Part shown: positions 15,567 to 32,699 of the stretch, piece after piece | Position numbering within the stretch: the stretch's first letter is position 1 | How the letters are laid out: each line of letters opens with the position of its first letter | Origin: Williamsia deligens | GTDB taxonomy: Bacteria; Actinomycetota; Actinomycetes; Mycobacteriales; Mycobacteriaceae | Reading direction: 5' to 3' | DNA length: 64,000 bases | Assembly: GCF_024171765.1 (NCBI RefSeq) | Contig: NZ_JAMTCI010000002.1 | Span: forward strand, 186,001 to 250,000 | Program-made: the position numbers and the translations under genes | The notes under the pieces: generated by a model | The model's input: the letters and a program-made list of their open reading frames with translations, nothing else | Told to the model about the DNA's origin: nothing | Databases searched by the model: none

Positions 15567-15575
15567 CGTCACCCC

Positions 15576-15630
15576 GTCGAGTGGGCGGTTGTGGACGTCG
15601 AGTGGGCGGTTGTGGACGTCGAGTGGGCGG
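15576..15630. repeat. 21-bp tandem repeat array, 2.6 direct copies, between convergent pgl and ppc
   Basis: Units at 15576-15596, 15597-15617 and a partial 13-nt unit at 15618-15630. The first two are identical: GTCGAGTGGGCGG followed by TTGTGGAC. The array fills most of the 70 bp between the pgl stop (15566) and the ppc stop (15637). All copies point the same way, so no long hairpin forms. The same unit builds the larger array at 29278-29546, so this is a dispersed family. Its place between convergent stops suggests a role in 3'-end formation; that is inference. Confidence 0.85.
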
Positions 15631-27265: not shown

Positions 27266-29236
27266 ATGCCGGTACGCGCCACGAGCGGTCCCACGACGAC
27301 CTGGATCCGTGCGACATGCCTGGTCGCGGCCATGGCTCTGGGGGTCGGGGCGTGCTCGTCGCCGTCCTCCGACGAGGCCTCCGCCGGGGTCTGCTCCACC
27401 GCCACCGCGACGGGTGCGCCGCAGTCGGGGGCCACGAATCCATCCGATGCGACACCGTCGTCCCGCGACATCTCGACGGCACCGGAGGTGGCGACGGGAT
27501 ACCGCTCCGGGCTGACGCCGGTGCGCACCCGCACGTTCGCCGTCGTCACCGCCAACCCGCTCGCCACCAAAGCCGCATGCGATGTCGTGTCGGAGGGCGG
27601 GACCGCCGCCGACGGGCTCGTCGCCGCCCAGGCCGTCCTCGGACTCGTCGAACCGCAGGCGACGGGGATCGCCGGCGGGGCGTTCCTCGTCTACTACGAC
27701 AAGGCGTCGAACTCGGTCCAGGCCTACGACGGGCGGGAGACGGCGCCCGCCGCGGCCACCGACGACTACCTCCGGCGCATCAGCGCCACCGACCCCCGCG
27801 CGCCGATCCCCTCGGCGCGTGCGAGCGGTCGCTCGATCGGCACGCCCGGCGTGCTGCGGATGCTCGAGATGGCGCACGACGACCACGGTGAGAAGTCGTG
27901 GCGGTCGTTGTTCGACCCCGCGATCTCGCTGTCCGACGACGGTTTCGCGATCAGCCCGCGCATGGCCGCGGCCATCGCCGACAGCCGCGCACAGTTGGCC
28001 AACGACGCGGAGGCCCGGCAGTACCTGCTGCAACCCGACGGGTCGCCCAAGACCGCGGGCACGGTCCTCACCAACCCGGCGTACGCCAAGACGTTGGGCG
28101 CGATCGCCACCGATGGCCCCGACGCGTTCTACACCGGCGCCATCGCCCGCGACGTGGTCGAGGCGATCGGACGGACCACCGGCGGCATGACGCCGGGCCT
28201 CACCACCGAGGCCGACCTCGCGGGCTACCGGGCCAAGAAACGCACCGCGCTGTGCACGCGGTACCGCGACCACGTGCTCTGCGGCATGCCGCCGCCGTCG
28301 TCGGGTGGGATCACCGTCGCCTCCACGCTGGGGATCCTCTCGTCGTTCGACCTGGCGTCGATGGGTCCGACCACGACGGACCGCAACGGCGGCCGGCCGT
28401 CGGCGGAGGCGGTCCACCTCGTCTCCGAGGCGGAACGACTGGCCTACGCCGACCGCGATGCCTATGTGGCCGACACGGACTTCGTCCCGCTCCCGGGTGG
28501 GTCGCCGGCGGCGCTCACCGATCCCGCGTACCTGCGCTCCCGGGCCGCGCTGATCGATCCGAGACGGTCGATGGGGACGGCCCGACACGGCGATCTCGGT
28601 GACGTCCCGGTGGGGCGCGACACCCCCGAGCACGGGACGAGTCAGATCTCCATCGTCGACCGCCAGGGCAACATGGCGTCGATGACGACCACGGTCGAGT
28701 CGTCCTTCGGCTCGTTCCACCTCGTCGACGGGTTCGTCCTCAACAACCAGCTGACGGACTTCTCGGCGACGCCCGTCGGCGACGACGGACGTCCCCTGCC
28801 GAACCGGGTGGCCCCCGGCAAGCGACCGCGCAGCTCGATGTCGCCGACACTGCTGTTCGCGGCGCAGCCGGACGGGTCCCGGGGCGCGCCTGTCGGGACG
28901 ATGGGGTCGCCCGGCGGCTCGGTCATCATCCAGTTCGTCGTCAAGACGCTGGTGTCGATGCTCGACTGGGGACTCGACCCGCAACAGGCGGTGTCCGCGG
29001 TCGATTTCGGGGCGGCGAACGGTCCGACGACGAACGTCGGGGGCGAGCACCCTGACATCGACGCCGCCGACAACGGTGACCACGATCCCCTGGTGCAGCG
29101 ACTGCGCTCGCTGGGACATCAGGTGTCGGTGGCCGACCAGAGTTCCGGGCTGGGGGCGATCATGCGTGACGGGGACGGATGGATCGGTGGCGCCGACCCC
29201 CGACGCGAAGGCGTCGTCGCCGGGGACACGCGCTAG
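27266..29236 (+). CDS. ggt: Gamma-glutamyltransferase, predicted lipoprotein
   Basis: N-terminal nucleophile hydrolase that cleaves gamma-glutamyl bonds of glutathione-like peptides outside the membrane. It has 656 residues. A signal peptide ends in the lipobox GVGAC with Cys30, so the protein is probably membrane-anchored. TATGIAGGAFLVYYD-like and GMPPPSSGGIT segments lie in the large-subunit region. HGTSQISIVD places the autocleavage and catalytic Thr at residue 458, and GSPGGSVIIQFV is the small-subunit motif. It is inserted between uvrC and the rib cluster, facing the opposite way. Confidence 0.94.
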   Translation: MPVRATSGPTTTWIRATCLVAAMALGVGACSSPSSDEASAGVCSTATATGAPQSGATNPSDATPSSRDISTAPEVATGYRSGLTPVRTRTFAVVTANPLATKAACDVVSEGGTAADGLVAAQAVLGLVEPQATGIAGGAFLVYYDKASNSVQAYDGRETAPAAATDDYLRRISATDPRAPIPSARASGRSIGTPGVLRMLEMAHDDHGEKSWRSLFDPAISLSDDGFAISPRMAAAIADSRAQLANDAEARQYLLQPDGSPKTAGTVLTNPAYAKTLGAIATDGPDAFYTGAIARDVVEAIGRTTGGMTPGLTTEADLAGYRAKKRTALCTRYRDHVLCGMPPPSSGGITVASTLGILSSFDLASMGPTTTDRNGGRPSAEAVHLVSEAERLAYADRDAYVADTDFVPLPGGSPAALTDPAYLRSRAALIDPRRSMGTARHGDLGDVPVGRDTPEHGTSQISIVDRQGNMASMTTTVESSFGSFHLVDGFVLNNQLTDFSATPVGDDGRPLPNRVAPGKRPRSSMSPTLLFAAQPDGSRGAPVGTMGSPGGSVIIQFVVKTLVSMLDWGLDPQQAVSAVDFGAANGPTTNVGGEHPDIDAADNGDHDPLVQRLRSLGHQVSVADQSSGLGAIMRDGDGWIGGADPRREGVVAGDTR

Positions 29237-29277
29237 GTCCGCTCACCCCTCACCCCTCACCCCTCCCCCTCGACCCT

Positions 29278-29546
29278 CACCCGTCGAGTGGGCACTCACG
29301 TACGTCGAGTGGGCGGTTAGAGACCTCCACTGGGCACTTTCGTACATCGAGTGGGCGGTTGGAGACCTCCACTGGGCACTTTCGTACGTCGAGTGGGCAG
29401 TTGGCGACGCGTCTGAGGTCGCGACGCCCACTCGACCCCTCCAACTGCACAGTCGACGTGTCCAACCGCCCAGTCGACGTGTCCAACCGCCCAACCGACG
29501 TGTCCAACCGCCCAACCGACGTCTCCAACCGCCCACTCGACGGGTG
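29278..29546. repeat. Inverted array of 21-bp repeats (6 forward + 6 reverse units) between convergent genes
   Basis: Six units run forward from 29283 to 29408, then after 7 nt six units run in reverse from 29416 to 29541, each 21 nt. The consensus is GTCGAGTGGGCGG followed by TTGGAGAC. Units at 29325-29345 and 29367-29387 are an identical variant beginning CTCCACTGGGC, so part of the array has a 42-bp period. The outer ends pair perfectly for 16 bp (29278-29293 with 29531-29546). The innermost pair matches for 11 bp (29388-29398 with 29426-29436). It occupies most of the 331 bp between ggt and the 29568 gene and holds no credible gene. It could act as a two-way transcription barrier. Confidence 0.88.
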
Positions 29547-29567
29547 GGGTGTGGGCGATCGGCCGGA

Positions 29568-31838
<2,271 letters not shown>

Positions 31839-32480: not shown

Positions 32481-32535
32481 CGTGCCTCCTGTCGTCGACT
32501 CAGGGCAGCACGTCCGCGGCCGGCACGGCCACGAC

Positions 32536-32690
32536 AGTTCTCTCTCATCCGGACTGTGACCGTCGGCTCCGGAGTCACACCGGATCTGCTGACCCCGGCG
32601 CCAACCTGTCGGTCGTCGTCCGGGCGCTCGCGGGCTTCGACGCGTACGCCGTCACCGCCGGTGGGGAATTGCACCCCGCCCTGAGAACTT
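32536..32690 (-). ncRNA. FMN riboswitch (RFN element)
   Basis: The conserved core is readable: GGGCGGGGTGCAATTCCCC, then ACCGGCGGT, GCCCGCGAGCG, the CAGATCCGGTG segment, and GCCGACGGTCACAGTCCGG with GATGAGAGA at the end. P1 is a perfect 7-bp pair, AGTTCTC (32683-32689) with GAGAACT (32536-32542). It precedes ribE by about 55 nt and should shut off ribE-ribBA-ribH when FMN is high. No obvious terminator with a T-run follows, so control is probably at translation; that part is inference. Confidence 0.95.
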
Positions 32691-32699
32691 GCGGTTCCG

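Follow-up and report, generated by a model that had tools for sequence, protein, structure and literature searches.

The inverted array between two convergent genes of Williamsia deligens is one member of a genome-wide family of polar repeats that, judged from genome sequences, lie mostly at the 3' ends of genes with nearly rigid 21-bp spacing and much more variable linkers, at sites shared with relatives that differ in linkers, copy numbers, and dominant core. We tentatively favor, with a probability of about 0.4, the reading that the repeats are binding sites in phase with the DNA helix and serve to terminate or block transcription past the gene end, with both the factor and its effect being putative. 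The 21-bp arrays may represent a hitherto unrecognised class of intergenic boundary or stop element that is bound by protein, and a literature search, although not exhaustive, found no description of this repeat. For the question of how transcription ends in G+C-rich actinobacteria where no U-tract hairpin is visible, repeats that are tied to gene ends, polar, phased, and lineage-specific in sequence are directly testable candidates for a factor-bound stop or boundary, with their core dialects providing a handle for finding the factor through co-evolution.

Architecture of the array and its 21-bp unit

The window (the whole stretch of 64,000 nucleotides analysed) contains the inverted array and a second array with a single arm (Table 1). 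The initial annotation described six forward units facing six reverse units, each of 21 nt, in a 331-bp gap between convergent genes, and the sequence bears this out (gap at 29237-29567), with all 10 within-arm spacings equal to 21 nt. Its 7-nt centre is correct when units are counted from GTCGAG, counting from the conserved C giving 9 nt, and it was also right that the outer 16 bp (29278-29293 and 29531-29546) pair perfectly and that the innermost facing cores match over 11 bp. Units 3 and 5 of the forward arm (29282 to 29407) have diverged to CTCCACTGGGCA, and part of the arm repeats as a double unit of 42 bp (29289-29408; 2.9 copies, 91% matches), which indicates expansion by two units at once.

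Table 1. Arrays of the window and the genes that precede the two facing arms
Feature	Position	Strand	Basis or remark
Forward arm, six 21-nt units, core GTCGAGTGGGCR	29282..29407	+	sequence
Centre separating the arms, 9 nt long when units start at the conserved C; facing 12-nt cores lie 25 nt apart	29408..29416	.	
Reverse arm, six units of 21 nt each on the minus strand	29417..29542	-	sequence
Gene preceding the forward arm (ggt, name from the initial annotation)	27266..29236	+	first core 46 nt past stop
Gene preceding the reverse arm, about 157 aa	29568..30041	-	own gene call; first core 26 nt past stop
Second array, one arm, three cores/units, between two convergent genes	15575..15629	+	sequence

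With up to three mismatches, CGTCGAGTGGGCGGTT matches 14 times in the window, whereas 100 shuffles give 2.88 matches on average and never more than 7. The FMN riboswitch (RF00050, 107.4 bits, 32533-32692 on the minus strand), near genes that the initial annotation named as riboflavin genes, is the sole Rfam match at gathering score in the window, and none falls at the array.

Each unit consists of a 12-nt core, then eight more variable linker nucleotides, then a conserved C. The core, GTCGASTGGGCR in Williamsia and GTYGAS(T/C)G(G/T)GCG in genus g9, lacks palindromy in its Williamsia form. Among 209 comparisons of adjacent units there are 503 linker differences (over 8 nt each) as against 212 core differences (over 12 nt each). 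When same-strand core intervals of up to 70 nt are taken unconstrained, 240 of 258 are exactly 21 nt, 13 are 42 or 63 nt, and five are neither. The rule that defines arms accepts only steps of 20, 21, 22, 42, and 63 nt, and this restriction conditions the spacings counted under it, of which 5 of 292 are not multiples of 21; the count of 258 intervals is free of the condition.

The period is also recovered without prior choice of a core dialect. A dialect-free scan of one 400-kb stretch each of G002, G006, and W. deligens finds intergenic arms at lag 21 in numbers of 8, 17, and 7, respectively, and 0 to 2 arms per stretch at every other lag from 15 to 30; it requires TG(G/T)GC in similar units, so that the constancy of TGGGC is partly by design. 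In a less refined self-match scan of these stretches, lag 21 yields 3, 14, and 5 regions and the runner-up, lag 22, yields 3, 6, and 3, with masked N in the W. deligens stretch inflating its counts at all lags. The 21-bp spacing is not universal further out, and tandem motifs in G296 (genus g29) are 18 to 20 nt apart by eye. At one locus of G006 (L132), the core is GTCGASCGTGCC with an apparent 22-nt period, and relatives have 21-nt arrays there, again by eye.

This nearly rigid spacing supports the remark in the initial annotation that the 21-nt period corresponds to two turns of the helix. Rigid spacing, variable linkers, and genome-level change of the core together point to a DNA-binding factor that reads one face of the helix, although tandem duplication by itself would also keep the spacing. 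We propose that a sequence-specific protein would bind the core on one helix face every two turns, and that factor and sites would co-evolve to give genome-level dialects around a largely constant TGGGC.

Position and polarity at gene ends

The arms are oriented with respect to the genes that they follow. The gene at the 5' side of an arm runs in the same direction as the arm in 30 of the 36 scorable W. deligens arms (37 arms, one unscorable) and in the opposite direction in six (binomial p of 7e-5), and in unchosen 400-kb stretches the same polarity holds for 8/9 arms in G002 and 12/19 in G006 (together 20/28, p of 0.04); both p values are optimistic because they treat arms as independent, which two arms of one locus are not. 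With chosen relatives included, the counts are 46/53 scorable arms in Williamsia and 21/28 in g9; loci L075-L094 were chosen rather than random, nine of them for two arms flanking a gene and eleven as examples, and neither the L047 arm nor one of those at L083 has a scorable 5' neighbour. The W. deligens polarity count and the 400-kb stretches are free of locus choice, with the W. deligens stretch overlapping the polarity loci. Gene calls throughout come from a simple hexamer model made for the analysis.

Most arms begin close to the gene end, with fewer than 60 nt separating the stop from the first core in 39 of 46 same-direction Williamsia arms. Convergent outer flanks are found at 13 of 22 scorable W. 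deligens loci as against 35 of 214 intergenic regions of a 400-kb stretch. Arms also occur between co-directional genes (L038, L041, and L044), and a few loci face outward (L033 and L051 in W. deligens and L066 in g9). Tabulated genome-wide against gene orientation, as the initial annotation had proposed, the positions are non-random, which supports a role at gene ends, and the arrays may act as the two-way terminator suggested there. Placement behind genes and polarity together suggest a link to transcription ends. Each arm would be a largely independent polar tandem array of candidate binding sites at the 3' end of the preceding gene, and where genes converge the two arms would meet head to head as an "inverted array." Once bound, such an array would act as a one-way barrier to RNA polymerase or as an insulator between neighbours, above all convergent genes.

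We note that an ordinary-looking hairpin lies between stop and arm at L039, L126, and L128-L131, with a short T run at L039 and L129 (all by eye). The arm is therefore not the sole possible stop there, and insulation or a fail-safe function is as consistent with the arrangement as primary termination is.

Four g9 arms at L081, L088, and L089 begin inside the upstream gene, 5 nt short of its end, such that its stop codon lies within the first core and is apparently the TGA of GTTGAC. A coding repeat was considered and rejected, as distances from the upstream stop show no constant frame; frame 0 has few stops (one among 1326 codons of g1), which composition can account for. Neither is a G-rich RNA motif general to the arrays, since g9 linkers are not G-rich.

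Paired arms and the single-unit inverted pair

The foremost alternative, which we consider somewhat unlikely, is a bidirectional RNA-hairpin terminator. Here the facing units of a transcript arriving from either side would pair into one long stem, which would end transcription or protect the RNA 3' end, and the arrays would be an expanded form of a single-unit hairpin. The very stable RNA fold of the whole window array (z = -10.8, with none of 200 shuffles equally stable) is as expected of such an element, but single arms are only mildly structured (sense z mean -0.85, 18/78 below -2; antisense -0.16, 6/78), and a simple consensus scan for the canonical intrinsic terminator, a G+C-rich stem followed by a T run, finds no site in 29000-29800. 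Several loci carry one-arm arrays, and elsewhere two arms flank an entire gene. Inward gaps between facing 10-mers in W. deligens are 26 to 28 nt in 7 of 15 cases, with the others ranging from 16 to 103 nt.

Linker sequences speak against pairing of whole arms. Of eight linker positions, 5.59 are identical between within-arm neighbours; facing units share 3.61 in register and 3.63 off register, and units of different loci share 3.88. Shuffled partner arms equal or exceed the facing-linker identity in 1431 of 2000 trials. At the array ends there is a weak signal in register: the outermost linkers agree at 66 of 136 positions compared with 51.3 when shuffled (47/2000 shuffles reach this), and the innermost flanks at 61 of 175 compared with 49.6 (69/2000). 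Because this agreement exceeds that of shuffles, some pairing or local copying near the array ends is possible. The initial annotation had raised a single palindrome (a cruciform, a long hairpin, or an RNase III-like substrate), and this proposal is weakened by the commonness of one-arm arrays, by arm pairs flanking a whole gene, and by facing linkers that are unshared overall; what survives of the pairing is the weak signal at outermost and innermost positions. On the sequence comparisons made here, a pair of polar tandem arrays, one per gene, describes the inverted array better than a single hairpin does.

The hairpin terminator is a live rival above all for a single-unit version of the element found in the wider family. 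The inverted pair CGAGTGTGC-N-GCACACTCG (N of 33 to 63), in which CGAGTGTGC is related to the array core motif, is present in 36 of 301 genomes and 7 of 31 genera, with no match in the reversed control; the inverted-pair matches listed include no Williamsia row. Linkers and gaps were compared in 74 of the 79 listed plus-strand matches, from 19 genomes, with five nested or near-identical matches omitted (gaps 58, 57, 39, 39, and 39). The 11-nt linkers of these 74 form 8.12 pairs, as against 7.80 when shuffled within genomes (49/3000 reach this) and 5.38 when shuffled overall (0/3000), as a stem would predict. A stem-loop, however, gives no evident reason for their gap, with N being 38 or 39 in 67 of the 74 listed matches, 58 or 59 in five, and 42 or 48 in two. 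Williamsia genomes of the W. maris type differ, with an N of 32 or 33 in nearly all of their pairs listed, at the edge of the search range of 3 to 33. Among 30 of the 34 core matches in G296 that were examined, 26 are intergenic by our own gene calls, and a same-direction gene lies at the 5' side in 16 of 25 scorable cases. A single-unit version with genus-typical geometry is thus spread over part of the family, as far as sequence matches indicate, and the tandem arrays look like an elaboration of it, the direction of change being presumed.

The RNIE paper reportedly describes a mycobacterial terminator motif, TRIT. PMC3526491 mentions TRIT of the RNIE paper. TRIT may correspond to the single-unit version of the pair, but tandem arms in phase and arrays with just one arm go further than a lone hairpin. 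Neisseria DNA uptake sequences (DUS) have dialects that differ by species. Uptake-sequence pairs resemble the arrays in their short core, inverted pairs at gene ends, and species dialects, but the 21-bp arrays have far fewer copies and are phased, tandem, and polar. Dyads of Haemophilus influenzae uptake sequences (USS) act as terminators (PMC5217627), and the excerpted text of that source gives other spaced 3'-end motifs, none of which is the 21-bp array repeat.

Several facing-arm pairs lie about 1 kb apart around one gene and are orthologous in two species each (L077/L078, L080/L082, and L048/L076). The genes between facing arms at L040, L075, L080, and L082, in two genera, are AbiEi/DUF559-like by resemblance, with only those of L080 and L082 reaching the DUF559 cut-off. 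A DUF559/AbiEi-like nuclease as spreader of the arrays was rejected, as only 2 of 26 DUF559 matches in four genomes are in between-arm genes (places compared by eye), and no gene common to all between-arm intervals was found. Gene insertion into an array centre as the origin of the arms was likewise set aside: at another locus, facing repeats are seen by eye in 8/8 Williamsia genomes, in four dialects and at the end of the same downstream gene, and seven of the eight have a called gene between these repeats. Since G004 has the facing repeats without a called gene, the middle gene does not explain the arms. The other neighbour of this locus differs in G006, whose dialect there has CGTGC instead of TGGGC.

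Spread of the family and its dialects

Across the W. deligens genome (4.41 Mb, nine contigs), CGTCGAGTGGGCGGTT with up to two mismatches has 138 matches compared with 10 for a reversed control. There are at least 23 array loci (26 regions fetched, of which 23 have arms and three do not), a minimum because the dialect-free 400-kb scan added one locus with other cores, at 226699 of the stretch. Loci L001-L030 and L057-L065 and lone cores are left out of the arm scan and the arm counts, respectively; L035, L036, L056, and L071-L074 have no arm under the rule, with L036 carrying four minus-strand units with weaker cores. Tandem core pairs are present in 7/8 genomes of the genus Williamsia and in 32/301 genomes and 9/31 genera of the family sample. 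Outside Williamsia, nine g9 genomes and one g17 genome have at least 10 tandem-pair matches, and the remaining genomes have one or two that are possibly chance.

Sites are conserved more than sequences. In G007, five of six fetched array loci lie between the same genes as a W. deligens array, as does one of two in G004. Orthologues of the window locus have 2+3 units in W. serinedens and 3+4 in an uncultured Williamsia, and in a Williamsia MAG (L071) and W. maris (L072) there are facing TCGAGTGTGC cores without 21-bp units. Orthologous arms keep their polarity and mostly their core, with linkers and copy numbers replaced, and orthologous arrays of relatives can have another dominant core (GCCAGTTGGGC or GTCGGTTGGGC) in the same polarity. 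The dialects are also visible among the commonest intergenic 9-mers, which in G002 include pieces of TCGAGTGTGC and CAGTTGGGCAC, in G006 pieces of CGTCGGTTGGGCGGAAA, and in W. deligens pieces of CGTCGAGTGGGC beside general G+C-rich words. Dialects are mixed in G006 arms, where GTCGGTTGGGC, GTCGACTGGGC, and GTCGAGTGGGC occur 33, 15, and 13 times, respectively.

Dominant dialects shared across a genome, mixtures within single arrays, large copy-number changes at orthologous sites, and patchy presence (tandem pairs in 32 of the 301 genomes, some with one or two chance-like matches) would all be in keeping with a selfish or neutral dispersed repeat, spread by some copying process and surviving mostly behind genes because other insertions harm, with ongoing copying producing the dialects. 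We regard this as unlikely, given the polarity of arms to the gene and given that both sites and polarity are common to species. No RAYT-type transposase is found in 20 genomes, and no gene is common between arms. An origin as part of a mobile element was rejected on the settings used, with no exact tandem-pair pattern match in viral contigs and no array match in plasmids and phages (blastn, 1e-5).

REP/BIME elements with RAYT transposases are dispersed, intergenic, located at 3' ends, and often present as inverted pairs. The W. deligens arrays share all of these attributes, but their unit is non-palindromic, tandem at 21 bp, and polar to the gene. The initial annotation held that the repeats differ from REP elements, and this stands as regards the transposase: a search for the Y1 transposase (PF01797) is positive in 0/20 genomes, compared with 5/14 control genomes. 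Membership of the REP/RAYT family was rejected on this result and on the lack of palindromy in the core. The mycobacterial interspersed repetitive units (MIRU) have units of about 50 to 80 bp and lie mostly between co-directional genes; they too are intergenic, tandem, polar to genes, and from related bacteria, but are well apart in length from the 21-bp unit.

A role in gyrase and supercoil handling has been proposed for some E. coli BIMEs, and arrays that attract gyrase or a bending protein, and thereby take up positive supercoiling where genes converge, would suit the convergent setting and the helical phasing; this is very improbable, as arms also lie between co-directional genes and such a site does not require polarity.

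Helical phasing and polar arrays are each known from protein-bound systems. Iterons of plasmid origins are roughly 20-bp direct repeats in phase with two helical turns, and the Sal-box terminators of mammalian rDNA are polar protein-bound terminator arrays. The 21-bp arrays differ in being dispersed behind many genes and in that their factor is putative. Within the binding-site reading, they could be a bacterial counterpart of protein-bound stop arrays, in which a fast-evolving factor, lineage-specific core dialects, and phased tandem sites combine in a one-way block to RNA polymerase, a doubtful but possible extension.

A larger arrangement is present at G003:C1:2847256-2847973, where facing TCGAGTGTGC pairs occur six times with 133-nt spacing, forming a tandem array of a larger palindromic element.
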